A stretch of DNA of 64,000 nt from Nostoc sp. PCC 7524 (GTDB taxonomy: Bacteria > Cyanobacteriota > Cyanobacteriia > Cyanobacteriales > Nostocaceae). The notes beneath the pieces are model-generated. The model was given only the letters and a program-made list of their open reading frames with translations, did not search any database and had not been told where the DNA came from. The position numbers and the translations under genes were made by a program. Below, one piece after another: positions 2,630 through 30,673 of the stretch; position 1 is the first letter of the stretch, and each line of letters opens with the position of its first letter. Location of the stretch: positions 1,240,001-1,304,000 of the forward strand of contig NC_019684.1 in assembly GCF_000316645.1 (NCBI RefSeq), in the 5' to 3' direction.

Positions 2630-2648
2630 TTAACTGGTAATAATGACA

Positions 2649-4600: not shown

Positions 4601-4636
4601 GTCACGATGAGTATAAAAATTTCAAATAATGACTAG

Positions 4637-4668: not shown

Positions 4669-4704
4669 ATACCTAAATTTACGCCAGTGTTACCACAGTT
4701 GTTT

Positions 4705-4772: not shown

Positions 4773-4881
4773 CAGCTTTAAGTAAGTCATAAATCTATGG
4801 TCGGAGAATTTGACCAATTACCGCTAAAATCAAAAAGACAATAGTAATACCATCCAAAGGGCTGTATTTTCAGCAAGCACT

Positions 4882-5998: not shown

Positions 5999-6164
5999 TT
6001 GGGGACTGGGGATTAGGGATTGCGGATTGGGGACTGGGGACTGGGGGAGACAAGGAAGAACTAACTTCACCTGCTCCCCTACCTTCCACAAACGTTAGAC
6101 AATCTGGCTAGATAAATTCTGGCGAACTGTTACATTTATATATAAAAGAACTTTTTATTTAATT

Positions 6165-6320
6165 ATGAGCAATTCCCCTTCAACAGAACCTCAACCCAGC
6201 TACGTCAAACTAGCTATGCGAAATATGGTACGTAAGGGTGGTACTTCTTTGAAGCATTTCCTATTCACCGCAGTAGGACTGTTAGCTGTGCTGGTAGGTT
6301 TGGCTTACCTGACTCGCTAA
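6165..6320 (+). CDS. DUF3285 small membrane protein
   Basis: This 51-aa miniprotein has a polar N-terminus (MSNSPSTEPQPSYVKLAMRN), a basic turn (MVRKGGTSLKH) and one C-terminal transmembrane helix (FLFTAVGLLAVLVGLAYLTR). It matches my recollection of DUF3285, a cyanobacterial family of about this size found next to prfB. The position 166 bases after prfB and before ybeY agrees. Function is unknown. Confidence 0.8.
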   Translation: MSNSPSTEPQPSYVKLAMRNMVRKGGTSLKHFLFTAVGLLAVLVGLAYLTR

Positions 6321-6355
6321 ATATAGCAGTCGCCTACACCAAGAGGCTTTGAAGT

Positions 6356-6400
6356 CTGTAACCTGTAACCTGTAACCTGTAACCTGTCACCTGTCACCTG
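6356..6400. repeat. heptameric tandem repeat (CTGTAAC/CTGTCAC)
   Basis: Six or more consecutive 7-nt units CTGTAAC, changing to CTGTCAC, fill the spacer before ybeY. This is the short tandem repeat type characteristic of Nostocales. Confidence 0.85.
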
Positions 6401-6441
6401 CTATACCAGCCTAAAACCACAGTGCTAAGGAGAGTTTGTAG

Positions 6442-6972
6442 TTGGTAGAAGTTGAACTAGATGTGCAAGATTATTTCTTGGAGTCTTCCCCGGAAGAAGC
6501 TTTAAATTCTGGCTATCTAGATGCCCGGATTCCTCCGGAAACTTGGGAAAATTGGTTTAATCGTTGGCTAGAAGTTCTGCACGCCGACTTACCAGCAGCA
6601 GCTAGTTATGAAATTGGGCTGCGTTTGACTGATGACATAGAAATTCAAGAACTAAATGCCGCCTATCGTCAGCAAAATAAGCCCACAGATGTTTTATCTT
6701 TTGCGGCTTTAGAGGTAGAGTTACCGAAAAGTGCGGAAATGTCGGCTGCACCATTGTATTTAGGGGATATAGTTGTTTCGATCAACACGGCACAACGTCA
6801 AGCCCAACAGCAGGAACATAGTTTATCAACAGAGTTAGCTTGGTTGGTAGCGCATGGTTTACTGCACCTTTTGGGTTGGGATCATCCTGATGAGGAAAGT
6901 TTAATGCAAATGTTGCAACAGCAAGTAATCTTACTGAAGGCTATCAGTATTGATATAGACATAGAATATTAA
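6442..6972 (+). CDS. ybeY: endoribonuclease YbeY, 16S rRNA maturation
   Basis: YbeY is a zinc-dependent endoribonuclease in 16S rRNA 3'-end processing and ribosome quality control. The signature HGLLHLLGWDHPDEE near residue 140 supplies the three metal-binding histidines, and NKPTDVLSFA is the conserved upstream motif. The start is TTG at 6442, chosen because AAGGAG at 6427-6432 sits 9 bases upstream. At 176 aa it is slightly longer than E. coli YbeY, with an acidic N-terminal extension. dgkA follows after 139 bases; ybeY-dgkA linkage is common in bacteria. Confidence 0.95.
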   Translation: MVEVELDVQDYFLESSPEEALNSGYLDARIPPETWENWFNRWLEVLHADLPAAASYEIGLRLTDDIEIQELNAAYRQQNKPTDVLSFAALEVELPKSAEMSAAPLYLGDIVVSINTAQRQAQQQEHSLSTELAWLVAHGLLHLLGWDHPDEESLMQMLQQQVILLKAISIDIDIEY

Positions 6973-7111
6973 AGATTTCTATGGCTGTAGATGTGAAATT
7001 TTCACCATGCTTTTATAATACTTCTGTAGAAAATTGCGTTAAAGTTTATAGCTAGATTAAAATTAGCGAAAATTCTCACTAAATATACCGTACTGTTCTA
7101 TTTGTAAGCCT

Positions 7112-7567
7112 ATGTCTCAACAAATCTCCCCGCCACCTACGCAAAATCACTTATTTACCCTTGTGAATCAAGAACGAGAACTGTCTTGGCAAGTGGCCTC
7201 TAGTCTCTTGGTCAGCTTTAAGTATGCCTGGGCAGGTATTACCTACAGTTTTCAAACTCAACGTAATTTTCGGATTCATGTTAGTGTTTGTACTTTAGCG
7301 ATCGCTTTAAGTGTATTTTTACATTTACAACCAGTAGAAATAGCCATTATAGGCATCACTAGCGGTTTAGTATTAGCACTGGAGTTATTAAATACAGCGA
7401 TTGAGTCCCTTGTTGATTTAACCGTCAAGCAGACGTATCACGAATTAGCAAAAATCGCCAAAGATTGTGCTGCTGGTGCCGTGCTGGTTTCTGCTTTGGT
7501 GGCGGTGTTAGTTGCAGGAGTGTTATTGCTTCCACCCTTGTTAGTGTTGATTACGTCGGCTTTTTAG
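7112..7567 (+). CDS. dgkA: diacylglycerol kinase family protein (undecaprenol kinase type)
   Basis: This 151-aa DgkA-family integral membrane kinase phosphorylates diacylglycerol or, in Gram-positive-type members, undecaprenol. The hallmark ELLNTAIESLVDL lies between the second and third hydrophobic segments. Helices are seen in RIHVSVCTLAIALSVFLHL, IAIIGITSGLVLALELL and the long C-terminal segment. An N-terminal polar extension of about 45 residues precedes the core. The order ybeY-dgkA-trpG on one strand is conserved in cyanobacteria as far as I recall. Substrate preference cannot be read from the sequence. Confidence 0.92.
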   Translation: MSQQISPPPTQNHLFTLVNQERELSWQVASSLLVSFKYAWAGITYSFQTQRNFRIHVSVCTLAIALSVFLHLQPVEIAIIGITSGLVLALELLNTAIESLVDLTVKQTYHELAKIAKDCAAGAVLVSALVAVLVAGVLLLPPLLVLITSAF

Positions 7568-8443: not shown

Positions 8444-9211
8444 ATGAAACGACGACAGTTTATTGGTTACGCTGGGGTAGGATTAGCCACAGCTGTAGCC
8501 CCTACATTCGGTGCTTACCTTCCAGCCAATGCTCAATCTAGTGGTATTTCCGTACAGTGGTTGGGTCACACTTGTTTTTTGTTTACTGGTGGTGGGGTGA
8601 AAATTCTTGTCAACCCCTTTAAGACAGTTGGTTGTACTGCTAAATATCGTCCCCCGAAAGTGACAGCAGATTTGGTTTTAATTAGCAGTCAATTACTAGA
8701 TGAAGGTGCAGTGGATGGCTTGCCGGGTAATCCCAAGTTAGTATTTGCACCTGGAGTTTATGAATTTCAAGGTATTAGATTTCAAGGAATTGCCATTGAC
8801 CACGATCGCAAAGGTGGTAAACAATTTGGTATAAATACTGCGTGGAAATGGACTCAAGGGGGAGTCAACATTCTACACCTAGGAGGCGCAGCTGCACCCA
8901 TTTCCATTGAACAAAAAATCCTCATGGGACGACCGGATGTCTTATTAGTCCCTGTAGGTGGTAGTGCCAAGGCGTATAATGCAGAAGAAGCTAAACAAGC
9001 GATCGCAGTCTTAAATCCCAAACTGGTGATTCCTACACATTACCGTACACAAGCTGCTGATCCTAACGCCTGTGATATTGCACCACTAGACGAATTTTTA
9101 ACCTTAATGCAGGGTACAACCGTGCGGCGCAGTAATAGCGACACTATTAATATCAAGTCTGGTAGTTTGCCTGAGAATAGTGAAATTCAGGTGTTAAGCT
9201 ACAAGTTTTGA
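8444..9211 (+). CDS. exported metallo-beta-lactamase-fold protein
   Basis: This 255-aa protein begins with a twin-arginine signal (KRRQFIGYAGVGLATAVAP, likely cleavage after ANA). The mature part resembles the UPF0173/YtnP branch of the metallo-beta-lactamase fold: WLGHTCFLF, ILVNPF, LVPVGG and the C-terminal VIPTHYRT. The usual HxHxDH metal motif is absent in the segment ADLVLISSQLLDEGAVDG, so metal binding and hydrolase activity are doubtful. It is separated by 3 bases from trpG, suggesting one transcript. Export by Tat to the periplasm or thylakoid lumen is inferred. Confidence 0.82.
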   Translation: MKRRQFIGYAGVGLATAVAPTFGAYLPANAQSSGISVQWLGHTCFLFTGGGVKILVNPFKTVGCTAKYRPPKVTADLVLISSQLLDEGAVDGLPGNPKLVFAPGVYEFQGIRFQGIAIDHDRKGGKQFGINTAWKWTQGGVNILHLGGAAAPISIEQKILMGRPDVLLVPVGGSAKAYNAEEAKQAIAVLNPKLVIPTHYRTQAADPNACDIAPLDEFLTLMQGTTVRRSNSDTINIKSGSLPENSEIQVLSYKF

Positions 9212-9541
9212 TGGGACTGGGAATTGGAGACTGGGGAAACAAGGTAGACAAGACAATTGAAGAAGGCAGGAGGCAGAAGGAGCAATTCAGCTATAGGATT
9301 CGACCCCTCCTGAATTGAAACCACTGAATTCTGATTCAGTGGGGGTCTTAAACCCTGTCTTGAAAAGTTGCTCCTCTTGGGTAAAACCCAAGACCGCACT
9401 TTTCGCTTGCTCCCGACCGTCGCGGCAGGAGTCAGTTCGCGCAGCGTCCCGTAGGGAGGGCAGTTTCCCTCCTGCCTCCTGCCCTCTGCCTCCTGCCTCT
9501 CTTGATAAATCTCTCATTCCCTAATCCCTACTCCCTACTCC
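9212..9541. repeat. spacer element with inverted heptad-repeat arms
   Basis: This gene-free 330-base spacer carries a purine-rich arm (9261-9282, GGCAGGA-like units) and a complementary pyrimidine-rich arm (9466-9500). The inner part includes a CACTGAATTCTGATTCAGTG hairpin and a GTCGCGGCAGGAG...CCCGTAGGGAG segment. A second pyrimidine tandem (about 9515-9548) runs to the chlM stop codon. The design matches 41219-41400. No coding frame is convincing. Confidence 0.7.
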
Positions 9542-10234
9542 CTACTCCCCACTACGTGTAGCTTCTAGAATACGCGAAAAGTAAAAACGAGTCTTAGTAA
9601 ATGCCTTTCTTTGGATAGCAAAGCCATTCTTTTCTAGGATTTTCACCACATCAGCCTCACGATGTAGATAGGCGCGAGTGGTTTTACTAGGCCCTGGAAA
9701 GAAACTGCCGATTTTTTTGAGTAAAGCTAAAGCGCAGGTTTTAGGCGCAAAACTCAAAATGATTCTCGACTCAGACAAAGAACAGAGGTGAGAAATCATC
9801 TCATCGGCTTTTTCTTGGGGGTAATGAATGAGGACATCCAAGCAAATCACAGTGTGATAACTGCCGCTTAAAGATTCCAAATCCTGTACCGCAAAGGTAG
9901 GATTTTCAGCATTACCCAAGGCTGCTAAGGCTCTTTGCTTGCCTTCTTCTACCATTTTTTCAGAGATATCGCTGGCATAAACCTTAGCGCCTGCTGTTGC
10001 TAGGGGAATGCTGAGACTACCTACACCACACCCAGCATCGCAGATTGATAACTCTGCTAAATTGCCATCATTTTTCAGCCAGTCGATAACTGTATCCACA
10101 GTTTGCTGGTGTCCATTACGGATGTCTAGCTGGACTTTGTTGACTTCGCCATCGCCATAAATCCGTCTCCATCGGTCAAACCCCGTGGAATTGAAATATT
10201 CGCGAACAATGGTTTTATCGTCGGCTGCGTTCAT
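9542..10234 (-). CDS. chlM: magnesium protoporphyrin IX methyltransferase
   Basis: ChlM transfers a methyl group from S-adenosylmethionine to the C13 propionate of Mg-protoporphyrin IX, the step after Mg-chelatase in chlorophyll synthesis. At 230 aa it has the family length. It shows the N-terminal REYFNSTGFDRWRRIYGD motif typical of BchM/ChlM, the SAM-binding loop ICDAGCGVGSLSIPLA, and the distal SFAPKTCALALLKKIGSFFPG. The ATG at 10234 begins MNAADDKTIV. The gene stands alone on its strand, about 7 kb from chlD. Confidence 0.95.
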   Translation of the reverse strand: MNAADDKTIVREYFNSTGFDRWRRIYGDGEVNKVQLDIRNGHQQTVDTVIDWLKNDGNLAELSICDAGCGVGSLSIPLATAGAKVYASDISEKMVEEGKQRALAALGNAENPTFAVQDLESLSGSYHTVICLDVLIHYPQEKADEMISHLCSLSESRIILSFAPKTCALALLKKIGSFFPGPSKTTRAYLHREADVVKILEKNGFAIQRKAFTKTRFYFSRILEATRSGE

Positions 10235-18221: not shown

Positions 18222-18681
18222 GGAATGGGGGCAGGGGGCAGGGGGGTAGGGGAGAATCAATATTGCCTCAGCACTGCCCACACAGTAGTTAATGATTTAA
18301 GAATATTTACTTATTTGTATCAATTTGTGATACAAATGACTGAGAATATACTGAATCAATTGATACTCTTTAATAAATACTTAAAAATATACATATAAAT
18401 TCATAGACTAATTAGTGATCATCTCTGGGTAGGATGAAATGCTTATATATCAAGCTCTACAAGTAATTTATTTGACTTTTGACAGCCTATTGACTATTGT
18501 TAAAAACATTAAATTGTATTTAAAAATACAGAATTAATGTTTAAGTAAATAGAGTATTAGTCAAATTTATTTGTGGATTTGTTAACAACAAAAATGCAAT
18601 TATGTTTAAGTAAAAAACTTGATTGTGGTTAAGTTTGCTACCATTGTCAATCATCGCTTTTCAAGTAGAGAAAGATCACCA
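18222..18681. other. 460-base spacer upstream of the first ammonium transporter
   Basis: After a short G-rich tandem tract (about 18206-18255) the spacer is AT-rich. It contains the GTA-N8-TAC promoter element described separately. No further gene is seen. Confidence 0.6.
18516..18555 (+). promoter_or_regulatory. NtcA-type promoter (GTA-N8-TAC-N20-TAGAGT)
   Basis: GTA at 18516-18518 and TAC at 18527-18529 are exactly 8 bases apart. A TAN3T box (TAGAGT, 18550-18555) starts 20 bases after TAC. This is the canonical class II NtcA-activated promoter layout of cyanobacterial nitrogen-assimilation genes. Transcription would begin near 18562, giving a leader of about 120 bases to ATG 18682. Confidence 0.75.
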
Positions 18682-20151
18682 ATGAATAAGCGTATTCGAC
18701 CTTGGCAACGCATACTGGCGCTGGCTATTAGCTCAATGATATTTGCAGTTTTTGCACCGATTGTTGTGCAAGCAGCAGATTCACCAAATTTGCAGTCTTT
18801 ATCAGAGACTACAATCAGACTGCAAGTTTCACTTGATACTACATGGGTGCTACTCACTGGGTTTTTAGTGTTTTTTATGCAAACTGGCTTTGCCATGTTA
18901 GAAGCAGGTTTTCTGCAACAAAGGAGTGTAGTCAATGTTTTACTAGAAAACTTTGTTGATGCTGCTGTAACAATCCTGGTGTGGTGGGCAGTAGGTTTTG
19001 GTATCGCATTCGGTAGCAGTGCTGGTGGGTTGTTAGGTGTAGATACATTCTTTCTGAGCCAGATGCCTGGTGCTGATGGTAGTTTTCCAATGGGTGCGCC
19101 TGGTTCTACAGCTGCGATTAACACCTATACTTTGTTCTTTTTTCAGTTTGCCTTTGCAGCTACTGCTAGTACAATTACTACTGGTGCTATGGCTGGCAGA
19201 ACGGACTTTGTTGGTGACTTAATTTACAGTGCTGTCATGGGAGCAATTAGCTACCCAATTATCGTCCACTGGGCTTGGAACGCGGAAGGTTGGTTAGCCA
19301 AACTCAGTTATCATGACTTTGCTGGTAGTTCCATTGTGCATTGTGTGGGCGGTTGGACGGGGTTAGTAGGTGCTTATTTGTTGGGGCCACGTCCTGGGCG
19401 TTCAAGTTGGGGAACACCACCACCAGCCCATAATTTAGGCTTGACGACGTTGGGAACTATGATTTTATGGTTGGGTTGGTATGGATTCAATCCTGGTTCA
19501 ACCTTGGGTGCTGGTAATCCTGGCTTAATTGGGTTGGTGACTGTTAACACCACATTGGCGGCTGGTGCAGCTGCAATATCAGCCATGATTTTGCAATATA
19601 TCCGCACCGGCAAGTGGGATTTAGCCTCTTGTCTGAATGGTTCTTTAGCTGGATTAGTGGCAATTACAGCTGCTTGCGCTTACGTTGCACCTGCGGCGGC
19701 GGTGTTGATTGGGTTAACAGGTGGAATCTTAGTAGTGTTGGGGATGGATCTGATGGAATCACTCCACATTGATGATCCGGTAGGGGCTTTTTCCGTACAC
19801 GGGATTAACGGGATGATGGGTACTCTTGCCGTCGGCTTTTTGGGACAAGCAGAACTCACCTTAAACAAAAAGGCTGGGCTATTGTTAGGCGGTGGAATTG
19901 AATTATTGGGTATTCAAATTTTAGGTGTGGTAGCGATCGCAGTTTTTACGGTTGCTTTTAGTTTTCTCATGTTTGGTGGTCTGAAAATAATTGGACGTTT
20001 GCGTGTCCATCCTGAAGGCGATCGCTTGGGTATTGATGTTTATGAACATGGTGTATCGGTATGGCCTGATGTTTATGCAATTGAAAATTTGAATGAAGCC
20101 AAAAAAAAGCCCCCAAAAACTTCAGATGTAAAAACTTTTGAGCAGGAATGA
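18682..20151 (+). CDS. amt4: ammonium transporter, Amt family (first of three)
   Basis: This 489-aa Amt/MEP/Rh channel has a signal-like N-terminus (RILALAISSMIFAVFAPIVVQA) and 11 membrane helices. Family motifs include FMQTGFAMLEAGF, the pore-lining HWAWNAEGW, FAGSSIVHCVGGWTGLVGAY and DDPVGAFSVHGINGMMG with the second pore histidine. The C-terminal tail (GIDVYEHGVSVWP) has the YGxE-like regulatory segment. I place the start at ATG 18682; an in-frame TTG at 18619 would add 21 residues that look non-coding. The name follows the amt4-amt1-amtB order I recall for Anabaena PCC 7120. An NtcA-type promoter precedes it. Confidence 0.93.
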   Translation: MNKRIRPWQRILALAISSMIFAVFAPIVVQAADSPNLQSLSETTIRLQVSLDTTWVLLTGFLVFFMQTGFAMLEAGFLQQRSVVNVLLENFVDAAVTILVWWAVGFGIAFGSSAGGLLGVDTFFLSQMPGADGSFPMGAPGSTAAINTYTLFFFQFAFAATASTITTGAMAGRTDFVGDLIYSAVMGAISYPIIVHWAWNAEGWLAKLSYHDFAGSSIVHCVGGWTGLVGAYLLGPRPGRSSWGTPPPAHNLGLTTLGTMILWLGWYGFNPGSTLGAGNPGLIGLVTVNTTLAAGAAAISAMILQYIRTGKWDLASCLNGSLAGLVAITAACAYVAPAAAVLIGLTGGILVVLGMDLMESLHIDDPVGAFSVHGINGMMGTLAVGFLGQAELTLNKKAGLLLGGGIELLGIQILGVVAIAVFTVAFSFLMFGGLKIIGRLRVHPEGDRLGIDVYEHGVSVWPDVYAIENLNEAKKKPPKTSDVKTFEQE

Positions 20152-20559
20152 AGCAGTTAGGATCATCAATTGACAAAAGTTAGCAAACAGTAGTAGTGTA
20201 TTGCACAAATTTTTCATTCATCTCCACCCAAACTGCTTACAGAAATGAGATTGACAATTTGCAGCAATCACCCTTTCCACACTTCTTTTTTGCTTCATTA
20301 AAGATTCAATGAAGAGAGACAACTGTTTAAAAAAGTACATAATAATTTCTTAAGGAGAATTAGCTAAAAATATTTACAAAAGTGTCATTTTTTTTCTAAA
20401 CTCCTACATAGGTTAATTGACTTACTACTGTACAAACAGTCAACAAGTGTCTTCATTGAAAACTATCCAAATTCACGGATTTTAAACTGTAAGACTGAGT
20501 TTTTTCTCATTAACTGGTATTGCCTGTTAAAGATAACTGGGAGGTTAGGGTTCATACTC
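20152..20559. other. 408-base spacer between amt4 and amt1
   Basis: AT-rich spacer. I found no perfect GTA-N8-TAC; the nearest matches each miss one base (GTAGTGTATTGCAC, GTATTGCCTGTTAA). No terminator, repeat or small gene stands out. Confidence 0.5.
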
Positions 20560-22146
20560 ATGTACAAACAAAAATCAAAAATAAAAAGTAGGCGAGTTTC
20601 CCCAAGGAATTACGCTAAAACAACTAAATTCACCTCAAAAACCAAGTTATTTAATCTAGTTAAGCGACTTTCTCCCAGTTGGCGAGCTTGCTTACCTTTA
20701 GCTGGTTTAATTGTGTTGGGATGGGGTTATGCAGCAGTTGCCCAAAGCCCCGCCCCAGGTCCAACAACAGCTGAATTGAAAGTTGCCCTTGACACTCTTT
20801 GGGTAGCTCTCGCCGCCTTTTTGGTATTCTTCATGAATGCTGGTTTCGGGATGTTAGAAACCGGCTTCTGTCGCCAGAAAAACGCCGTTAACGTCCTCGC
20901 CAAAAACTTAATTGTCTTTGCACTAGCCACCGTTGCTTTTTGGGTAATTGGTTTTGGTTTAATGTTCGGTGATGGCAACGATTTTATTGGGTTAAATGGG
21001 TTTTTCTTAACAGGAGTAGATAACAGTCCTGAAACCGGAGATGCTTATAAAGGTGTCTTCAGTGCTTTAAGTTGGGCTGGTGTACCCCTGGCGGCTAAAT
21101 TTTTATTCCAGTTGGTGTTTGCTGGAACCGCAGCCACAATTGTGTCTGGTGCAGTTGCAGAGAGAATCAAGTTTGTTGACTTCTTAATTTTCAGCATCTT
21201 ACTTGTAGGCATTGCCTACCCCATTACCGGACACTGGATTTGGGGTGCGGGTTGGTTAGCAGACAAAGGCTTTTGGGACTTTGCAGGTTCTACGGTAGTT
21301 CACTCAGTCGGTGGTTGGGCAGCTTTGATGGGAGCAGCCTTTCTAGGACCTCGTATCGGTAAATATCAAGATGGTAAAGTTGTGGCTCTACCCGGTCATA
21401 ACATGAGTATTGCCACTTTAGGCTGTTTAATTCTGTGGTTGGGCTGGTTTGGTTTTAACCCCGGTTCTGTCATGGCTGCTGATCCCAATGCCATTACTCA
21501 CATCGCCTTAACAACTAACATGGCCGGTGCAGTTGGTGGGATTGCTGCTACCATGACAGCTTGGTTCTACCTAGGTAAGCCTGACCTGTCAATGATTATC
21601 AACGGTATTTTGGCTGGTTTAGTGGCGATTACAGCCCCTTGTGCTTACGTCAGCATTCCCAGTGCAGTGATTATTGGTTTGATTGCTGGCGTATTAGTAG
21701 TTTTTGCTGTCACATTATTTGACAAACTCGGTATTGATGATCCAGTAGGAGCTACCTCCGTTCACCTAGTTTGTGGTGTTTTCGGAACTCTGGCAGTTGG
21801 TTTATGGTCTGTTGGGCCTGGCGTTTACTCTTGGTATGGTGAAGGACTTGGGCCTGCCAAGGGTTTATTCGCTGGTGGTGACTTAGGACAGTTAGGTATT
21901 CAGTTCCTAGGCGTGATTTCCGTTGGTGGTATGACTGTGCTTCTGAGCAGTATCTTTTGGCTCGCTCTGAAAGCTACTTTGGGTATTCGAGTCACCAGAG
22001 AAGAAGAACTGGAAGGTTTGGATATCGGTGAACATGGCATGGAAGCCTACAGTGGATTCCTCAAAGAAGCCAGTCCCGGTGGATTTGCTGAAGGTGGTCA
22101 ACCTGGTGGTTACACATCAGGTGAAGATTATTCCAGTAGCATTTAA
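20560..22146 (+). CDS. amt1: ammonium transporter, Amt family (second of three)
   Basis: This 528-aa Amt protein has a long basic N-terminal extension ahead of the signal/first helix ([20 protein letters not shown]). The core shows [57 protein letters not shown] and [17 protein letters not shown]. The C-terminal [24 protein letters not shown] regulatory tail is the target of P-II/GlnK control in this family. It continues in a Gly/Ser-rich extension. A strong terminator follows at 22174-22221. The start could be one of several codons in the basic leader. Confidence 0.95.
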
Positions 22147-22173
22147 ATCAGTCTGTATATCTGGTTTTTGCTT

Positions 22174-22221
22174 AAAACCTGCCCCTCAAACTTTTTGTGT
22201 TCAAAGAGGTGGCAGGTTTTT
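22174..22221 (+). terminator. rho-independent terminator after amt1
   Basis: AACCTGCC (22176-22183) pairs with GGCAGGTT (22211-22218). An inner CCTC/GAGG extension continues the stem, and a T-run follows the right arm. It separates amt1 from the convergent RiPP cluster. Confidence 0.85.
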
Positions 22222-22236
22222 CTGTACCAATTCCAA

Positions 22237-22971
22237 TTACAAATTAGCTTCAGTACCAACCGCGACACAGTAAAGTGTCGCATGACGTTGACCATCAATA
22301 CCCAAAATCTGATTGACAGCCATATCTTGAAATCCACCTAGACAAAGACTACCAAGCCCTAACTCCACAGCCATGAGACAGATATTTTCAGCTTGATGAC
22401 CGGCTTCCAACAGAATAAAACGATAGCCGCGTGTACTATATTTACAGAGCGATCGCATGAAAACCCCAGTCAGAATAAACAGGGCATTGGCATTAGCAAT
22501 ATAATCCTGTTGTAATAAAGGCGTAATAAAATCTTTAGGCGTAGCTTCATTCACCCAATGTAACCCATGACGACGTGGCTCATAGTGGTATAGTCCATTA
22601 GATAAATCTTCTACTGCCTGTATAGATACAAACATCTCAATTGGAAACAGTCCACCAGCAGACGGAGCGTTCCGCCCTTCGTAAGGATTACCTTCTGCCT
22701 GACGCAACCCATTTATACCACAGGCAGCATCCAGTAATTGAGCCAATGTAATCAATGTCATGTGCGTATTTTTAAATGCTCGTACTGAATGGCGTTGTCT
22801 TAGTAAGTTGGTAAAGTAATTATCTTGTGGCACTGTCGGCAATTCCAGAACAGTCGCCTCTGGCATATACCGCATTTCTGTAGCTGGAACCCGCTTGACA
22901 TAACCTTCAGGTGGTAAAGAATTCCAGTGGTACAGTAGGGTTAACTCTAAAGGTTCGTTGATTTTGTGCAT
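22237..22971 (-). CDS. SagB-type FMN-dependent azoline dehydrogenase
   Basis: This 244-aa nitroreductase-fold protein is of the SagB family, which oxidises thiazolines and oxazolines to thiazoles and oxazoles in TOMM biosynthesis. Diagnostic segments are LLRQRHSVRAFKN (FMN phosphate site), NAPSAGGLFPIEMFVSIQ, GLYHYEPRRHGL, LEAGHQAENICLMAVELGLG and the C-terminal GIDGQRHATLYCVAVG. It is shorter than two-domain SagB proteins. It is last in a minus-strand series after the precursor, the E1-like partner and YcaO, which supports an oxidase role in the same pathway. A 169-base spacer separates it from ycaO. Confidence 0.9.
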   Translation of the reverse strand: MHKINEPLELTLLYHWNSLPPEGYVKRVPATEMRYMPEATVLELPTVPQDNYFTNLLRQRHSVRAFKNTHMTLITLAQLLDAACGINGLRQAEGNPYEGRNAPSAGGLFPIEMFVSIQAVEDLSNGLYHYEPRRHGLHWVNEATPKDFITPLLQQDYIANANALFILTGVFMRSLCKYSTRGYRFILLEAGHQAENICLMAVELGLGSLCLGGFQDMAVNQILGIDGQRHATLYCVAVGTEANL

Positions 22972-23140
22972 ATTTAGTCAATAGTTATTAGTTAAGTAGT
23001 CCTGGTGAAACAAGTTTCACCAGCCTTGTATGAAAATGTCTTTCTCCCCATGCTTCCCCTGCTCTTTCAAGCTAGGAGGCATAAGGGTTTTAAGCTGATT
23101 CATTTTTCTTAATCTCCCTCATCTCCTACTCCCCACTCCC

Positions 23141-24529
23141 TCAATCAAGCGGATGTGGGCAGGGATTCAAGCCATTTTCAATATGTCGGCTACCATAACC
23201 CATACGTTCTGGCACCTCGAACAAACGCCGAGTTCCCAGAGGCTCTTGACCGTAGCCAAAATATATGGGAGTTAATTCACTAGCTAAAGTCCTGACTACT
23301 CGAAAACCCAACCTAGCAATGTCAGGAGTGGTGACATCTACTAAATACGACTCAGCACCAACTGCACCTAACTTTTCCACTACGGTTTGTAATTTTTCTG
23401 ACTCTGCGGCAGAGGTATAAGTGGGTAAATCTTCGATGTTTTGGTATTGATGGTGGTGCAGTAAAAAGTCCAACTCACTAAGTCGTGCTGTAGTGTAGAA
23501 GAAAGCACTATGATCAGCTAAATCTTGAATATCCTCATATTTATGGAGCTTTGCACCATCTCCGGCAGCCATCCGGCTGATATCATGAGGACGTGCTTGG
23601 CAAACTTCAAAGATAGCTTTGCGAAGGGCGATAGCACCATCGAGGTCACATCCCAGTCCAGTTACAAGTGCCGGACCTTTACCAGAACGGTCAATTGCCA
23701 TTGCTGCAATCACTGGGATTTGAGTATCGGTAGTGAAATTAAAGGCTATCAACTCAATGTGAAATCGAGCATAGTTGCGAGCAATTTCAGTTTCAATCCC
23801 TGGTCTGTGCAGGAAATTAATCCGTGGCACTGGTAGGCGATTTAACCATGTAATGATTAAAGCATCACGTTCAACCAATTCACACAAACCCCTGGAAGCA
23901 GCAAACTCCACAGAAGGGCCACTGGCCATGCCATTGGTTGTGACAGGTAATATGCAATCCCCCTGTTGATGGCTACAAAAGTTGAGATAGACTGAGGCTG
24001 CGGGAATTAACACTTGCTTCTTGGTTCGCAGATTTACGGCTGTCACCCAGGAAGTTTGCATTGTGGGGTCAAAAGTCGGGAAGGGAAAATCAGGATCAGA
24101 GTATTGTTGTTCCGAAAAAGAGTAAAAAACTTGCGGTGGAACAGCTTTATCGCCCAATTCTGCGTAACTGCTGATAATTATTTGGTTGCGATCAAAAATA
24201 CTGCCACAATACCGTTCCAAGGCTTCGCCAACAGCACCCAAAATGGCTTGCTCATCAGTCATACCCTTGCCTACACCGTAGCGTAGATCATCTGGCTGTT
24301 GATAAATATTAAAATGCGCCAATTCTACCTGCCACAAAACAGGCAACTCAAACTCTGTATAAGGCTTAGTTAATCTGTCCACTGTGCGAATGATGCCAGT
24401 ATGGGGACTAACCAAGTCACGCCAACTGGGACTAACAACTGCTGTATTCACTATGTTTGCTTCCAATCCGAAGGGACTTCCAGATAAAAAAGTATGCAAA
24501 ATGTAGGGTGCGTCAGTGCCAGAAAACAT
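23141..24529 (-). CDS. YcaO-domain azoline-forming cyclodehydratase (SagD-like)
   Basis: This 462-aa YcaO protein uses ATP to phosphorylate peptide amide oxygens so that Cys/Ser/Thr side chains cyclise. ATP/Mg motifs are visible in ILGAVGEALERYCG, EFAASRGLCELVERDALI and IFEVCQARPHDIS. The C-terminus is NPCPHPLD, a PxPxP motif that lines the active site in azoline-forming YcaOs and separates this class from other YcaOs. The ATG at 24529 lies inside an inverted repeat (24503-24566), so the first dozen residues may not be native. GTG at residue 27, preceded by GGAAG, is a credible alternative start. The E1-like partner gene lies 102 bases upstream. Confidence 0.93.
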   Translation of the reverse strand: MFSGTDAPYILHTFLSGSPFGLEANIVNTAVVSPSWRDLVSPHTGIIRTVDRLTKPYTEFELPVLWQVELAHFNIYQQPDDLRYGVGKGMTDEQAILGAVGEALERYCGSIFDRNQIIISSYAELGDKAVPPQVFYSFSEQQYSDPDFPFPTFDPTMQTSWVTAVNLRTKKQVLIPAASVYLNFCSHQQGDCILPVTTNGMASGPSVEFAASRGLCELVERDALIITWLNRLPVPRINFLHRPGIETEIARNYARFHIELIAFNFTTDTQIPVIAAMAIDRSGKGPALVTGLGCDLDGAIALRKAIFEVCQARPHDISRMAAGDGAKLHKYEDIQDLADHSAFFYTTARLSELDFLLHHHQYQNIEDLPTYTSAAESEKLQTVVEKLGAVGAESYLVDVTTPDIARLGFRVVRTLASELTPIYFGYGQEPLGTRRLFEVPERMGYGSRHIENGLNPCPHPLD

Positions 24530-24566
24530 AGCTGCTCAGGAAATTATTCATACTGACGCACCCTAC
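24503..24566. repeat. 14-bp perfect inverted repeat overlapping the ycaO start
   Basis: GTAGGGTGCGTCAG (24503-24516) and CTGACGCACCCTAC (24553-24566) flank 36 bases. It has the look of a dispersed MITE-type repeat. The left arm lies within the annotated N-terminus of the YcaO gene. Confidence 0.85.
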
Positions 24567-24631
24567 TAACCATTAATTTGGGATAATTGATTTTTTGGTC
24601 TTCCCTAATTCCAAAGTAAAGGTTTGCTGAA

Positions 24632-25759
24632 TTACGAATTACGAGCTGGTGAACAATGGGGACAACCAGGCTTTTTGAGTACAACATTGTGAGTCAGCTT
24701 GGTGTTGATTAAGTCGATGTGCAGTAATTTACCATCCGTAGCAATTGGTAGACCAAGTAACAGCTTTAGGGTCTCAAGCACGAGATGACTACCAACCAAC
24801 AGATGTCCGATTGGCCAATTTTCTCGCAGTTGTGCTTGAGAACGGCGATCGCGATCTAAAAATTTTTCTAGTTCTAACTCTGCTTCCGGCAATTTAGCAC
24901 AAGCTATCGACCGCATCCGATAGCAAAGATAACAGGGAGCATCACCGCCTAAAACTAGAGGTCCAAGAGTTCCTTCAATTCCAAAAGCTCCTCCTGGTAA
25001 CAATGGACACTGCATTTTTAAACAAAGTCGGTTCAGGCGGTAAGCAAGATTCACTGATACCGCATCGGTAGCGACAATGGCTAAATCCACATCATCCAGC
25101 AATTCTGCTACTGTTTCGTCATTAGTTAAAGTATCAGTGACAGTCTCGGTTGCGGTCATACTTCCCATAGTGGCAATACGTTGAGCCGCTTCCACAGAGC
25201 GAAAATTACCCGCTTGACCAAATCCCCAGTTAGACATGATTAGGGAATCATAAGGGGATGTAGAGGCATTATCACACAAGCGCAGAAAACCAATACCAGA
25301 AGCCGCTAGATTCATAGCAGCGACAATACCTGAGCCTCCCAATCCAAAAATTGCAATACGGGCATTGGCTAATCGCTCTTCGGCATCTTGTTGCTTAAAA
25401 CCTAGTTCGTGGTAGAGACTGAGTTGAGGCTGCAATTGAGAGGGACTATATAGATTTAACCTGTCTTCTGGATGTTCTTCTACTAAGCGATTTTTAATCA
25501 AAAATTCTAAACATTCATTGAGAGAGGAATCTGTAAGTTTATCCCAGACAGCAGCGCGTATTTCTCCTATGGTACGTGTTCCATCTAGTAAAGGAAACAG
25601 CATCTTTTCTACATCTTGTAGTGCTTGACCATCTACTTTTAGCGTCCTCCGTGTGGTGTTGAATAACATTGTTTCTCTATCTTCATCAGTATCTGAAGAC
25701 ATCACACGAATGACGAGATGTTCTAGTAAACGCAGTCGCTGATTATCATTCAATTTCAT
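24632..25759 (-). CDS. RRE-E1-like TOMM partner protein (leader-binding cyclodehydratase component)
   Basis: This 375-aa protein is a SagC/ThiF-like partner of YcaO. Residues about 35-100 form a winged-helix RiPP recognition element (TRRTLKVDGQALQDVEKMLF, then TIGEIRAAVWDKLTD) that binds the precursor leader. The rest is an E1-like Rossmann domain with ARIAIFGLGGSGIVAAMNLA. Four zinc-binding cysteines come from CYLC and the C-terminal CPHC. In this class adenylation is degenerate and the protein serves to present substrate to YcaO. It lies 264 bases downstream of the precursor gene and 102 bases before ycaO on the same strand. Confidence 0.9.
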   Translation of the reverse strand: MKLNDNQRLRLLEHLVIRVMSSDTDEDRETMLFNTTRRTLKVDGQALQDVEKMLFPLLDGTRTIGEIRAAVWDKLTDSSLNECLEFLIKNRLVEEHPEDRLNLYSPSQLQPQLSLYHELGFKQQDAEERLANARIAIFGLGGSGIVAAMNLAASGIGFLRLCDNASTSPYDSLIMSNWGFGQAGNFRSVEAAQRIATMGSMTATETVTDTLTNDETVAELLDDVDLAIVATDAVSVNLAYRLNRLCLKMQCPLLPGGAFGIEGTLGPLVLGGDAPCYLCYRMRSIACAKLPEAELELEKFLDRDRRSQAQLRENWPIGHLLVGSHLVLETLKLLLGLPIATDGKLLHIDLINTKLTHNVVLKKPGCPHCSPARNS

Positions 25760-26023
25760 AGGCTTTTTACTTTCCCAAATACCAGAAATGTAAGAATATT
25801 CTTTGGGAGATAAGTTGATATTAAAAAACGAGCGATCGCTTCAAATAACTTTAAGCAATTAATATCTATATTTTCCTACTGATATCATGGCGATATTAGG
25901 TAATTTATTTGGCATTGAACTAAAAATTATTACCATGACATCAGCAGTTAAGAATAATTCGCCAAGAAAGAATTAACTAAAGCAACAGTTTTTAGTTTGG
26001 CAGATGGTTCTAAATTTGTAATC
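25760..26023. other. 264-base spacer between the precursor and E1-like genes
   Basis: AT-rich spacer with no convincing frame on either strand; a 13-codon frame at 25937 is too short to support. I see no second precursor here. Confidence 0.5.
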
Positions 26024-26365
26024 TTAGTATCCAAATCCCATATCGGAATCTTCCTCAGTTACAGCTGATGCTGATGCAACGCCACAGCCTCCACATTTAC
26101 TACAGCCTCCACATTTACCACAGCCGAAACATCGACCACAGCCGAAACATCGACCACAGCCGAAACATCGACCACAACCGCCACATCGACTACAGCCAAA
26201 ACAACTAGCACATCTGTTGCCCATAGGGGCAAGCAGTCCCTGACTAGCTAACTTTTCCCAAGTTGCTCTTTCTTGATCAGACAGCAGAACCTGCTCTAGT
26301 TTATCTTCGCTGTCTACTAAACGCATTTCTATGGTTTTTTCGGTCAGTGTTTTTTCTGCAAGCAT
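26024..26365 (-). CDS. Cys-Xaa-Xaa-repeat TOMM/RiPP precursor peptide
   Basis: This 113-aa peptide has a leader of about 50 residues (acidic and helical, ending [12 protein letters not shown]). The core has 15 cysteines at residues 52 to 94, one at exactly every third position, with Gly, Arg, Lys, Phe and Ser between them (RCFGCG units). A short acidic follower ends DMGFGY. The layout is that of heterocycloanthracin-type precursors of Bacillus, whose cysteines become thiazoles. I place the start at ATG 26365, where AAGGAG lies 9 bases upstream; an ATG two codons earlier (26371) is only 3 bases from it. The modifying enzymes follow on the same strand. No Gly-Gly protease site is evident. Confidence 0.92.
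26118..26189. repeat. 18-nt tandem repeat in the precursor core
   Basis: Three identical 18-nt units CCACAGCCGAAACATCGA occupy 26118-26135, 26136-26153 and 26154-26171. A diverged fourth unit lies at 26172-26189. Each encodes one six-residue GRCFGC unit on the minus strand. Identical adjacent units suggest copy-number change by slippage. Confidence 0.95.
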
Positions 26366-26371
26366 TGTCAT

Positions 26372-27028
26372 TTACTCCTTGTCAATTCAACTCTCATACT
26401 CTGTCTGACAATCTGTTTCAGATTCGCCAATAGCCTTGATGGTGTTAATCTGTTAACCATCTATAGAAGAGTAGGTATAAGAATCAGTGAGGAAATTATT
26501 GATATTCTTCTATTAGTAGAGTTAACAAGAAACATCAAGAATACTATTGAGAGTATTGCTGGTTCGCAAAAATTACCAATCACTTGCATTTAATTGCAAC
26601 GCTATTCTCAATGAGCTTTCACTCTCACTTAAGTCCGCCTATTATAAACAAACTGTTGCTTTTGGTTGTCATTGCAAATAACTGAATTTAGCAAAGTTTT
26701 GCAGACTCCAACTAATATCTACAATAGCTACTTATTCAGATTTTTATTCTTTCTTTGGTAGTTTATTATTATTTTATGATTATGTCTTTAGGAGTATTGT
26801 TTTTATTCTTTCTCAAACTAAAGTTATATATAGTGGCATTATCTATAAAATCTAGAATAAGATTTGGATTGTTTGCATATTATGTAAGGTCTATTCATCT
26901 ACACGTAAGTGATAGCTAATATCAATGATATTCACTTTGATTGAGTGATAAATATAGCAATTCATCAAAAATCAGCAAATACAGTAGAAAAAATTATTAA
27001 ACGCCAAATAAACAATAGGTTGCGATGA
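26372..27028. other. 657-base divergent spacer between precursor and exporter genes
   Basis: Very AT-rich, without a supported gene. It should carry the promoters for the precursor-led minus-strand genes and for the plus-strand ABC transporter. I found no GTA-N8-TAC site and no clear inverted-repeat operator. Confidence 0.55.
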
Positions 27029-28849
27029 ATGAGCGATTTAAGAGTTTGGTTTGAAGACTATACTAAAGCTTTATTTCGTTCTCTTCCCTTGTTATGGGCA
27101 GCAGCGCCTAGGGAAATCATTATTCTGATTACTGTCACTTTGTTACAAGGGTTTCTGCCTGCTGTAAGTGTATGGATTACTAAGTTGGTAGTAGATGCCG
27201 TAGCCACAGCTTTGTCTGATGGTGGAGAATTGGGCTGGACAATTTTGCTACCCTTGGTTGCTGGTTGGGTAGGTGCTTTGCTGTTAACCACGCTGCTTGA
27301 CCCTTGGAGAACAGCACTTCAAGGAAATCTCAACGATAAGCTAATGGCTCATATGAGTTTGATGTTGATGCGTAAAGCCAATACATTACCAGACCTGAGC
27401 CGTTTTGAAGATTCGCAATTCTATGATGAGCTACAGCTATTGCAAGAACGAGTTGGCTATCAACCTTTGAGTTTTCTAGAAAATTTGGTGGAATTAGTCC
27501 GGTCTTTGGTGACTGTAGTGGTGATGGTGGCGCTCTTGATTCCCCTAGGCTTTTGGATTCCCTTAGTGATTGCGATCGCTACTATACCACAGGTAGTAGT
27601 TTCTACTCAGTATGGTAAAACTATTTGGCTAACTCTGTTTGAGAATAGCCCCCAAGCTCGGAGGATGGAGTATTACACTTCCGTAATGTTGACTGACACC
27701 TATGCTAAAGAAACTAGACTATTTCAGTTAGGTTCATTTTTTATTGAGCGTTACCTACAAGCATTTCGCTCTTTATATCAAACTATGAGCCATCTGCGGG
27801 GTAAACAAGCTTTTTGGTCTTCTAGTTTAGCTATTTTAAGTACCCTAGGAAATGGTTTTGCTTTTTACTGGGTAGTGCAGCAGGCCTTTCGAGGACAGTT
27901 AAGCCCCGGTAGCGTGCTATTGTTTGTCCAGTCTTTAACTTATTTCCAACAGAATTTAGAGGGTTTAGTGGGTAATTGGCTGGAAATATTTGAAAATGCC
28001 CTGTTTATGCAGCAATTTTTCAATTTCCTTGATAGTACCAGTCCCATGCCATTGAGTGTACCTGGAGAGAAAATCCCAAATCCCATTCGTTCCGGCATCA
28101 CTTTTGACAAAGTTTACTTTCGCTACCCTGATGCTAAGGGATGGGCGCTCAAAAATGTTTCCTTTACCTTACAACCAGGGGAAACAGTAGCCATTGTGGG
28201 GGAAAATGGCGCGGGTAAAACTACTATTGTGAAGTTACTTACTAGGTTATACGACCCCACCAAAGGGCGGATTTTGGTTGATGGTGTAGACCTAAAAAAT
28301 TTAAATCTAGAGCAGTGGCGACAGCAAATAGCAGCAGTATTTCAAGACTTTGGCCGCTACGCTCTCACCCTAGGAGAAAATATCGCTTTAGGCAACCTCC
28401 AAGCATTAGAGCATAGGGATTTAGTCAGATACGCCATAGAAAAGGCCGATATAGCCAAATTAGTTGCAAAATTTCCTACAGGGGAAGACACACCCATAGG
28501 TAAGCAATTTAGTGGTACAGAACTTTCTGGTGGACAGTGGCAGAAATTAGCTTTAGCTCGTGCTTTTGTGCGTCAGGAAGCGCAAATACTGCTTTTAGAT
28601 GAGCCTACAGCTGCACTCGACCCCCGCAGCGAATATGAGCTATATCTACGGTTTGTTGAACTCACCAAGGGTAAGACTACCATTTTGATTACCCATCGAC
28701 TAGCTTCTGTGCGGATGGCTCACAGAATCTTAGTTCTCAAAGCCGGTCGTTTAATTGAGGATGGCACCCATCAGGAACTCTTACAGCATGGCGGCGAGTA
28801 TACCGCACTGTGGAATATGCAGGTGCAGCAGTATGGGATTGCGGAGTGA
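27029..28849 (+). CDS. ABC transporter, fused permease-ATPase, probable RiPP exporter
   Basis: This 606-aa half-transporter has an N-terminal membrane domain of about six helices (residues 20-320). The nucleotide-binding domain shows Walker A GENGAGKTT near residue 395, the signature LSGGQWQKLALARAF, Walker B ILLLDEPTAALDP and the switch ITHRLASV. There is no N-terminal C39 peptidase domain, so it should export an already cleaved or leader-bearing product. It is divergent from the precursor gene and lies within the same insertion between amt1 and amtB, which is the main reason to assign it to the RiPP system. The ribosome-binding site is weak. Confidence 0.9.
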   Translation: MSDLRVWFEDYTKALFRSLPLLWAAAPREIIILITVTLLQGFLPAVSVWITKLVVDAVATALSDGGELGWTILLPLVAGWVGALLLTTLLDPWRTALQGNLNDKLMAHMSLMLMRKANTLPDLSRFEDSQFYDELQLLQERVGYQPLSFLENLVELVRSLVTVVVMVALLIPLGFWIPLVIAIATIPQVVVSTQYGKTIWLTLFENSPQARRMEYYTSVMLTDTYAKETRLFQLGSFFIERYLQAFRSLYQTMSHLRGKQAFWSSSLAILSTLGNGFAFYWVVQQAFRGQLSPGSVLLFVQSLTYFQQNLEGLVGNWLEIFENALFMQQFFNFLDSTSPMPLSVPGEKIPNPIRSGITFDKVYFRYPDAKGWALKNVSFTLQPGETVAIVGENGAGKTTIVKLLTRLYDPTKGRILVDGVDLKNLNLEQWRQQIAAVFQDFGRYALTLGENIALGNLQALEHRDLVRYAIEKADIAKLVAKFPTGEDTPIGKQFSGTELSGGQWQKLALARAFVRQEAQILLLDEPTAALDPRSEYELYLRFVELTKGKTTILITHRLASVRMAHRILVLKAGRLIEDGTHQELLQHGGEYTALWNMQVQQYGIAE

Positions 28850-29254
28850 AGAAGGTGATAGGTGACAGGTGATAGGTGACAGTTGAACAGGGTGTAGGGG
28901 GTAGGGTGTAGGGTGTAGTGAAAACGGCGTTGGAAGAGGATTCTGACGAATTCCAACGCAGCCGCCCTGAAAGGGCGGGGCTTCTAACCCTATGGTTGTT
29001 GGGGCTGTCTTTTCCCCTACACCCCACACCCCACACCCTACACCCCGCCCCAACGGGGCATGGTGACAGGGAGAAGTGGGGAAAGTCTTCTCATTCTTGC
29101 ACTCTGCATCCTAACCCAATACCTATTTTTTTATTAAAATTTGCCGAAAAATAAATCAGCGTAACTTGCAAGACAAAAATTCTCTGCAAAAAGTAATGAA
29201 ATGTAATTAAGTATACATGGTTATTACTTTTTCAGGAGAAAGAGACAAAAAGAC
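28850..29254. repeat. spacer with inverted heptad-repeat arms before amtB
   Basis: A GGTGATA/GGTGTAG tandem arm (about 28855-28918) and a CTACACCCC tandem arm (about 29014-29046) form inverted arms around an insert with a CGCCCTGAAAGGGCG hairpin. The remaining 29050-29254 is spacer leading to amtB. No gene is supported. Confidence 0.7.
29203..29216. promoter_or_regulatory. possible NtcA-binding site upstream of amtB
   Basis: GTAATTAAGTATAC is an exact GTA-N8-TAC palindrome 38 bases before the amtB start. No TAN3T box lies at the usual 20-24 base spacing. It could therefore act as an operator, or be chance in AT-rich DNA. Confidence 0.35.
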
Positions 29255-30673
29255 GTGTTCAAAAAATTCTTGCTGATTGGGGTGATTACCCTTCTACTAC
29301 TCGCCAATTATCCAATAGGCGATGCGTTGGCTCAAACCCCAAATAATGCTCTGTCTGCTGATCCTGGAGATACAGCATTTATACTGTTTTCATCGGCTTT
29401 TGTGTTACTAATGACACCAGGACTAGCTTTCTTTTATGGTGGCTTTGTGCGATCGCGTAATATCCTCAATACATTGATGATGAGCTTTGTATTGATGGCG
29501 ATTGTGGGTGTCACCTGGGTTTTGTGGGGTTATAGTCTGTCGTTTGCCCCTGGGTTGCCGTTTATCGGTGGCTTACAGTGGCTCGGTTTAAATGGTGTGG
29601 GGCTAGAAACAACCAATTATTTACAAGGTTCTGCCCCCATCGATATAGTCTCCTATGCACCAACGATTCCCCATCAGGCATACATGATTTATCAAGCTAT
29701 GTTTGCCATTATCACCCCGGCGTTGATTTCCGGTGCGATCGCCGAACGGATGAGCTTTCGCGCCTATTGTCTGTTTGTCTTGCTATGGTCAACCTTGATT
29801 TATACCCCCCTAGCTCACATGGTCTGGGCTAAAGGTGGTTTACTGGGTTTATACGGTGGTTTAGGCGCTCTTGATTTTGCTGGTGGTACAGTCGTTCATA
29901 TTAGTTCTGGTGTTTCTGCCCTGGTTGCTGCCATTGTTTTAGGGCCACGTAAAACCCACCCTGACCGCCTCAGCCCTCCCCACAACGTACCATTTATTTT
30001 GTTGGGTGCTGGGTTACTCTGGTTTGGGTGGTTTGGCTTCAACGCTGGTAGTGCCTTATCTGTAGCTAGTGGTACTTCCGGTAATTTAGTCACAAACGTA
30101 GCTACAACCGCCTTCGTCGCTACTAATACCTCTGCGGCGGCGGGGGCTTTAATGTGGCTGATTTTGGAAGCAACTTTACGGGGTAAACCTACCGCCGTAG
30201 GTGCGGCTACAGGCGCGGTTGCTGGTTTAGTAGGTATTACCCCATCTGCCGGTTTTGTGGTTCCCTTGTCAGCAATTTTGATTGGTTTTATCACCGCTTT
30301 CGTGTGTTTCTATGCGGTGAGTTTCAAACACAAACTCAATGTTGATGATGCCTTAGACACCTATCCTTTGCATGGTGTGGGTGGGACAGTCGGCGCAATT
30401 TTAACAGCCTTCTTTGCCACGTCTGAAGTCAACTCAGCCGGGAAGGATGGCGTATTGCGGGGTAACTTTGGGGAATTGGGCGTGGAACTAGCAGCAATTA
30501 TGATTGCTTATATCATTGCGGCGGCTGGAACTTGGATCATCCTCAAAATTATTGACGCTACCGTAGGGTTAAGAGTCAAAGAAGAAGCCGAATATCAAGG
30601 ATTGGATATCAACGAACACGGAGAAGAAGGTTATAACTCCGAGTATAGCGATCGCATCAATGTATCCGAATAA
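29255..30673 (+). CDS. amtB: ammonium transporter, Amt family (third of three)
   Basis: This 472-aa Amt channel has a cleavable-type signal (FLLIGVITLLLLANYPIGDALA) and the standard 11-helix core. Motifs include LMTPGLAFFYGGFVRSRNIL (Phe gate region), FAGGTVVHISSGVSALVAAI with a pore histidine and ALDTYPLHGVGGTVGAIL with the other. The tail LRVKEEAEYQGLDINEHGEE is the GlnK-sensitive segment. Of the three it is closest to E. coli AmtB. The start is GTG at 29255, chosen by the AGGAG at 29234-29238. In the Anabaena PCC 7120 order I recall it directly follows amt1; here 7.1 kb separates them. Confidence 0.95.
   Translation: MFKKFLLIGVITLLLLANYPIGDALAQTPNNALSADPGDTAFILFSSAFVLLMTPGLAFFYGGFVRSRNILNTLMMSFVLMAIVGVTWVLWGYSLSFAPGLPFIGGLQWLGLNGVGLETTNYLQGSAPIDIVSYAPTIPHQAYMIYQAMFAIITPALISGAIAERMSFRAYCLFVLLWSTLIYTPLAHMVWAKGGLLGLYGGLGALDFAGGTVVHISSGVSALVAAIVLGPRKTHPDRLSPPHNVPFILLGAGLLWFGWFGFNAGSALSVASGTSGNLVTNVATTAFVATNTSAAAGALMWLILEATLRGKPTAVGAATGAVAGLVGITPSAGFVVPLSAILIGFITAFVCFYAVSFKHKLNVDDALDTYPLHGVGGTVGAILTAFFATSEVNSAGKDGVLRGNFGELGVELAAIMIAYIIAAAGTWIILKIIDATVGLRVKEEAEYQGLDINEHGEEGYNSEYSDRINVSE

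Follow-up and report, generated by a model that had tools for sequence, protein, structure and literature searches.

Two described kinds of thiazole/oxazole-modified microcin (TOMM) cluster bear on the locus discussed here. Heterocycloanthracin clusters, in the accessible parts of their published descriptions, combine a fused, truncated cyclodehydratase with an F protein (TIGR03693), a B protein, and precursors of family TIGR03601 (PMC4603692, PMC7470986). The anabaenasins were named from sequence by Cox et al. 2015; the available text of that paper reports them from 11 species, leaves their product unexplored, and places their D protein nearest those of haloazolisin and mobilisin (PMC4603692). 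Our locus occupies positions 22237..28849 of a 64,000-nucleotide stretch of Nostoc sp. PCC 7524 (contig NC_019684.1, positions 1,240,001 to 1,304,000; referred to as the window). Judged by its sequence, it is a TOMM, or linear azole peptide, cluster and belongs to a family found in Nostocaceae. The cluster is real and looks intact, and the family has probably already been named, remaining uncharacterized.

The initial annotation had described a cluster for a ribosomally synthesized and posttranslationally modified peptide (RiPP) of the TOMM kind, with three azoline-forming or azoline-oxidizing enzymes and an exporter, all of which is supported. Rereading the open reading frames (ORFs) of the window returned all five at the positions first given. 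On the minus strand, the order is the precursor peptide gene (26024..26371), the E1-like C protein, or cyclodehydratase partner, with an N-terminal region resembling a RiPP recognition element (RRE) (24632..25759, 375 amino acids [aa]), the YcaO cyclodehydratase, or D protein (23141..24529, 462 aa), and a SagB-type flavin mononucleotide dehydrogenase predicted to convert azolines to azoles (22237..22971); an ATP-binding cassette (ABC) exporter of 606 aa is divergent, on the plus strand (27029..28849). All three enzymes score above curated family cutoffs. SagB matches TIGR03605 at 134.6 bits (cutoff, 78.4), aligns to McbC (6gos; E value, 8e-11), and has the KY pair. YcaO matches the SagD-type model TIGR03604 at 316.5 bits (cutoff, 219.25), as well as PF02624, and aligns to MusD, LynD, and TruD, over about 425 residues for the last two. 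The E1-like protein matches TIGR03882 at 44.5 bits (cutoff, 36.9) and PF00899, falling below the cutoff of the SagC model TIGR03603 (43.1 versus 187.65 bits); TIGR03882 was also matched by all 18 aligned members of the E1 family at E values up to 1e-5. YcaO had been said to end in PxPxP, which is not quite so: the PCPHP near its C terminus is followed by two more residues, LD here and mostly MA in relatives. PCPHP is found in 39 of 41 cluster YcaO proteins and RCPHP in two, always with two residues after it.

The profile of the E1-like family aligns with MoeB, MccB, and PaaA; LynD and TruD align with the C-terminal part of this profile. The Arg and Lys of the MoeB stretches NLQRQ and GQPKVE are lost in the family, and its alignment shows four invariant zinc-type Cys; we take these positions to have their usual functional roles. 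Because the MoeB-type Arg and Lys are lost and the zinc-type Cys are kept, the protein is probably a partner that presents the substrate rather than an adenylating enzyme.

Comparison across genomes ties the precursor to these enzymes. Of 217 Nostocaceae genomes searched for the E1 protein, 41 encode it. A leader profile run on the same 217 matched the same 41, with no match in a genome lacking E1 and one match in each except for one genome with two; this converse search used a profile built from 13 leaders and scored at most 30 candidates per genome, some genomes having more. Thus, the proposed search of cyanobacterial genomes, made with the precursor leader, succeeded, and the refuting case offered with it, that the Cys array belongs to a metal-binding protein without ties to the YcaO genes, was contradicted and rejected, given the cooccurrence of leader and E1 in an identical 41 of 41 genomes. 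In a sample of 386 genomes from the phylum, all 16 E1 matches fell within one family, Nostocaceae. A scan of public genomes yielded 24 cyanobacterial and three acidobacterial loci. Among all loci gathered, 41 distinct cyanobacterial clusters were left once duplicates, recognized by the last 300 E1 residues, had been removed. The precursor lies beside the enzymes in 40 of these, and in the 41st (G057) it is at the edge of another contig. SagB is in the cluster in 40 of 41, and the exporter is full length and divergent in 39, the window included, the other two ending at a contig edge; the association of these genes is therefore not due to chance. The sole cluster without SagB, that of Dendronalium phyllosphericum (L003, in genome G042), has a 73%-identical SagB elsewhere in the genome.

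The precursor has three parts, all on the minus strand: a leader conserved in the family (residues 1 to 53; 26213..26371), a core (residues 54 to 96; 26084..26212), and an acidic tail, or follower, ending in MGFGY (residues 97 to 115; 26027..26083). The core is encoded by 18- and 36-bp tandem repeats and has a net charge of +6, that of the tail being −4. It holds 15 Cys, and all 14 intervals between them are of three residues, just as had been counted from the translation. The gene is real; its start at 26371 (115 aa as called) is probably wrong. The predicted ribosome-binding site, AAGGAGT (26374..26380, minus strand), lies too near that first ATG, and many relatives begin with MLAEK, so a start at 26365 (113 aa) is preferred. 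The motif AAGGAGTAA 5′ of the precursor is conserved as a ribosome-binding site, each of its positions being common to at least 85% of 40 upstream regions. No second precursor match was found in the same genome at E values up to 1.

Collapsing precursors with identical last 80 residues left 73 nonredundant cyanobacterial sequences. Four rows of the leader search (P0041, P0044, P0050, and P0053) were excluded from core and tail counts for frameshift, truncation, or a very short core (P0050, at 86 aa, still ends in the tail), and P0003 to P0008 of the precursor search were left unused. Mean pairwise identity is 0.76 in the leader and a moderate 0.52 in the tail, and FG[Y/H/N] forms the C-terminal end in 73 of 73 (FGY in 69). 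The cores vary strongly, with lengths of 30 to 55 residues and 9 to 20 Cys. Their Cys-Cys intervals are mainly of 3 residues (798), then of 2 (123), 4 (42), and larger (21); perfect three-residue spacing is found in 11 of 73 cores and is not typical of the family. The 2993 core residues include 1346 Gly and 1057 Cys; Asp and Glu are absent, and Ser or Thr occur just 16 times, 3 of these in the window core, which leaves Cys as almost the sole candidate for cyclization. Of the 984 residues standing before a Cys, 855 are Gly; when the non-Cys residues of the cores were shuffled 1000 times, the mean was 688 (standard deviation, 10; maximum, 733). Mean charges in the family are −5.1 for the leader, +5.2 for the core, and −3.8 for the tail. 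The same leader can bear different cores (for example, P0048 versus P0049). In Amazonocrinis nigriterrae (L009), two precursors adjoin (8746-9144 and 9300-9632), with cores of different length.

The initial name, "heterocycloanthracin-like," holds for the look of the core and not for the rest. Heterocycloanthracin and sonorensin systems (TIGR03601; PMC2674419, in the accessible text) share with the window a Cys-Xaa-Xaa core, a YcaO protein, a SagB-type dehydrogenase, here as the B protein, and a leader-binding ThiF-like protein. The proposed comparison of the precursor with TOMM precursor families reached TIGR03601 at 11.4 bits only, against a cutoff of 35 (20.7 bits for the L003 precursor), over profile positions 40 to 86, with the leader outside the match. 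Instead of a fused cyclodehydratase, there are separate proteins of 375 and 462 aa, E1 and YcaO being separate ORFs in other clusters too. The partner is a stand-alone TIGR03882-type protein in place of an F protein, and TIGR03693 was not among the families matched by E1 (E values up to 1 for the window and up to 1e-5 for the 18 members). The acidic conserved tail is a further difference. Bacillus and Thermoactinomyces precursors do appear among weak precursor matches, and 5 of 46 leader-search matches carry the UniRef name heterocycloanthracin, but these names are the same core-driven link as that made initially, and the kin of the leader are acidobacterial and Paracoccus precursors instead of Bacillus heterocycloanthracins. 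We therefore rejected membership in that family and consider it highly improbable that this is a genuine heterocycloanthracin cluster exchanged with Bacillus in either direction.

The window family is probably the anabaenasins, matched by published description rather than by sequence, since C and D as individual proteins, precursors rich in Gly and Cys, and Anabaena among the hosts all fit the account of PMC4603692, as far as its available text goes. That text also reports a transposase between the C and D genes of Anabaena sp. 90 (PMC4603692), which fits none of our 41 clusters, with E1-YcaO gaps of at most 216 bases; Anabaena sp. 90 is not among the named loci from the public genome scan. 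In the literature searched, we found no use of the name beyond Cox et al. 2015 and, at the level of titles and abstracts, no described product for this cluster.

Other azole peptides offer partial parallels. Cyanobactin enzymes (LynD and TruD) align with the YcaO protein and have a TIGR03882-type partner; the window differs in its separate cyclodehydratase, its other precursor, and the lack of a PatA/PatG-type protease among the five genes. With microcin B17, the cluster shares a predicted Gly-spaced azole chain, an McbC-like dehydrogenase, and dedicated export. It differs in that few or no Ser-derived oxazoles would be expected, in its conserved C-terminal tail, and in having no McbG-like immunity gene among the five. 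A TOMM precursor of Bradyrhizobium japonicum, as described in the accessible part of PMC2674419, has a core of Cys-Arg-Gly repeats, which are common among relatives of the window. Nostatin A, according to the available text of PMC11583998, is an azole-containing proteusin from Nostoc; it resembles the predicted product in its host and its azoles but has a nitrile-hydratase-like leader. Wang et al. 2011 (PMC3140520) class C39/HlyD clusters, and the accessible part of that paper describes none of this kind.

The leader leads further afield than the core. When applied to the three acidobacterial loci (L026 to L028; 516 ORFs), the cyanobacterial leader profile picks exactly three small ORFs, which lie upstream of E1 and YcaO (E values, 4e-7 to 7e-6; next best ORF, 2.8). 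A leader search gave 302 relatives; among the matches listed, the named ones are Pyrinomonadaceae, Vicinamibacterales, Alloacidobacterium, and an uncultured bacterium. A profile built from 120 of the 302, among the matches listed, compared with the cyanobacterial leader profile at 95% probability (E value, 2.6e-8). These acidobacterial relatives carry other cores, such as CTIRACTIRAC, and lack the acidic FGY tail (40 of the matches listed). Two of the three loci have CTIRA-type repeat cores, in what is apparently a large family. Between precursor and E1, L027 has a radical S-adenosylmethionine (radical-SAM) C-methyltransferase (TIGR03975, 684.9 bits; cutoff, 281.85), and L026 and L028 have a radical-SAM gene (PF04055) at the same place. 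A Paracoccus denitrificans plasmid (NZ_CP141053.1, 2416-10186; L086) encodes a divergent ABC protein, a precursor, a radical-SAM protein (PF04055), E1, YcaO, and SagB, and the leader profile picks this precursor at an E value of 7e-8 (next best, 0.31). The L086 cluster carries no annotated features in the genome collection used. Paracoccus gave the one relative found on a plasmid (E values up to 1e-20 and 1e-30). Thus, the acidobacterial and Paracoccus clusters share a homologous leader and the E1-YcaO-SagB order with the window, and L086 a divergent ABC gene as well, but they add a radical-SAM gene and have other cores.

Within Nostocaceae, the cluster is patchily distributed and appears to be mobile. 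Three ammonium transporter (amt) genes stand in a row in the window (18619-22146 and 29255-30673, all PF00909), and an inserted stretch of about 7 kb (22147..29124), containing the cluster, splits the second from the third. This stretch is absent at the site in six genomes of the same genus, where the flanking transporter genes are 129 to 357 bases apart (aligned ends); one of the six, G205, has its cluster elsewhere (L071). The amt site is occupied in 5 of the 41 clusters, the window among them, one being seen from one side only. By eye, short direct repeats (GGTGACAGGTGATAG... and CCCTACACCCCACACC...) can be seen at 28850-29070, a stretch that separates the exporter from the third transporter gene and lies at one edge of the insertion.

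Anabaena sp. 4-3 (L010) has its cluster at the same amt site, and its similarity to the window is uneven. DNA identity is 85 to 88% in the transporter genes, SagB, and the exporter, but only 71 to 72% in YcaO and E1, and of the precursor the 5′ part alone aligns (74% over 175 bases). Two other clusters served as controls: for L075, YcaO and E1 are at 79 to 80% with flanks at 79 to 85%, and for L074 at 75 to 77% with flanks at 79 to 82%. On inspection, L010 and L072 have the leader end QRWVSRC and CGGYC-type cores, both missing from the window. Trees of E1 plus YcaO and of SagB plus exporter, covering 20 and 19 of the 41 clusters, conflict accordingly. The SagB-exporter tree groups the window with Anabaena sp. 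4-3 (support, 100/99), and the E1-YcaO tree separates the two. Approximately unbiased tests gave a P value of 2e-43 against window+L010+L072 on E1-YcaO data and one of 2e-8 against window+L074+L075 on SagB-exporter data, values that are not for clades named in advance, since the clades were picked after the pairwise identities had been viewed. The simplest reading is that a precursor-E1-YcaO specificity block was replaced by recombination, with SagB and the exporter kept. The clean empty amt sites, this exchange, and the homologous leader with radical-SAM genes in Acidobacteria and Paracoccus are all features for which we met no earlier description in the accessible text of the literature searched.

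Taken together, the cluster very probably makes an azole- or azoline-bearing peptide. We imagine that the leader would dock on the RRE-like N terminus of the E1-like protein, which would present the core to YcaO; YcaO, spending ATP, would cyclize each Cys onto the preceding residue, in the family mostly Gly; and SagB would then oxidize thiazolines to thiazoles, with a loss of 20.03 Da per ring and of up to 300.4 Da for 15. The acidic leader and tail may balance the cationic core until proteolysis frees it from the leader and possibly also from the tail. Secretion would fall to the ABC exporter, assisted perhaps in half of the relatives by a MacA/HlyD-type adaptor encoded close by, and the same exporter would provide self-protection. 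The most likely product is an exported, cationic, Gly-spaced polythiazole bacteriocin, broadly like microcin B17, although we see an antibacterial role as evenly balanced.

The exporter is confirmed, as predicted, as a divergent ABC protein: its ATPase domain is recognized by PF00005 (123.2 bits; cutoff, 25), and its membrane part scores 18.5 bits for PF00664, under the cutoff of 28. Its Pfam matches did not include a C39 peptidase domain, and no subfamily model was above its cutoff among the matches listed. A survey of neighboring genes in 40 clusters, many with short flanks, found a MacA/HlyD-type adaptor gene near 20, on the exporter side in 11 of the 12 places listed, at 15 to 3758 bp. The L005 adaptor (region 3522-6258), the sole one tested, exceeds the TIGR01730 cutoff. 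A MacB-like permease was noted in the flanks of 12 of the 40, most of the places listed being on the same side as the exporter; that of L005 is below its model cutoff (286.5 versus 966). Among the best 25 neighbor groups, a C39-peptidase ABC transporter group lies near 5 of 40 loci and an M16 peptidase group near 4 of 40, with one member of each confirmed by family (in L022 and L007, respectively). With counts so low, there is no leader protease candidate common to the clusters among these 25 groups, although both may serve as leader proteases for their own loci.

Several observations weigh against an exported antibacterial polythiazole. The earlier description of the partner as RRE-E1-like is borne out for its E1 part, but the RRE part is weak: the best solved structures for the N-terminal profile are a protein lysine methyltransferase (E value, 0.0087), then PbtF (0.095) and LynD (0.21), and the structure model of the protein has a predicted local distance difference test score of 77, of medium confidence. 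Before the Cys of the window core, which contains 3 Ser, Gly stands in only 7 of 14 cases, with Arg in 4, Lys in 2, and Ser in 1; in the family, Pro, a less usual substrate, occupies this position in 71 of 984. Among the five genes, there is neither a protease nor a recognized immunity protein. No adaptor gene adjoins the window cluster, two partial relatives (51% and 46%) being encoded elsewhere in the genome, and the exporter could belong to another system. The product is predicted from the genes, and an antibacterial role draws on variability, mobility, and analogy.

The alternatives concern both chemistry and role. It is possible, if doubtful, that the core is partly modified or left partly as thiazoline, so that the product is not a full polythiazole. 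Half of the window Cys follow residues other than Gly, and L003 lacks a local SagB, though with the copy elsewhere in its genome; the retention of SagB in 40 of 41 clusters speaks against this reading. That filamentous cyanobacteria use the peptide as a signal or in development, and not as an antibiotic, seems unlikely. The confinement of all 16 phylum matches to one family and the ammonium transporter genes adjoining five clusters would suit such a role, but the cluster is absent from 176 of 217 Nostocaceae genomes, other clusters have no such neighbors in the flanks examined, a search of 40 upstream regions, each covering at most 400 bases, found no NtcA-like GTAN8TAC site, and strongly varying cores would be unusual for a conserved signal. 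Thiazole peptides can bind metal, and the core is Cys-rich and regularly spaced; one can thus envision a metal ligand or metallophore, released by the exporter, in which thiazoles or partly free Cys bind metal. Full cyclization would remove the thiols, however, there is no uptake receptor or metal regulator among the five genes, and spacings of 2, 3, 4, or more residues are ill suited to one fixed metal site, all of which makes this reading improbable.

Returning to the azole peptide, a wider picture can be put forward only tentatively. TOMM clusters found in cyanobacteria, in Acidobacteria, and on a plasmid of an alphaproteobacterium may be linked by one leader family (E-M-R-x(5)-D-K-L ... 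E-E); in the cyanobacterial branch, cationic polythiazoles would be kept inert between an acidic leader and a conserved acidic follower; leader, E1, and YcaO would be swapped as a block, with SagB and the exporter reused; and the core would be rewritten by repeat turnover, amounting to a natural plug-in variation of an antibiotic.

The second YcaO gene of the genome belongs to another RiPP cluster, L085 (C2:834500-849500), in which, at about 2179-7468, two Nif11-domain precursors (PF07862) lie near a TfuA gene (PF07812) that YcaO follows; this is possibly a thioamidation cluster.

If the proposed chemistry is true, Nostocaceae would hold unexplored thiazole-chain peptides whose cores contain almost nothing besides Cys, Gly, and Arg. 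Such peptides would form a simple system in which to study the function of a polythiazole chain. Homology of the leader offers a way to find, in other phyla, relatives whose cores are quite different. Segment exchange, together with a SagB encoded in trans, suggests that leader, E1, and YcaO are the specific parts and SagB and the exporter the shared ones, which would be useful to pathway engineering.

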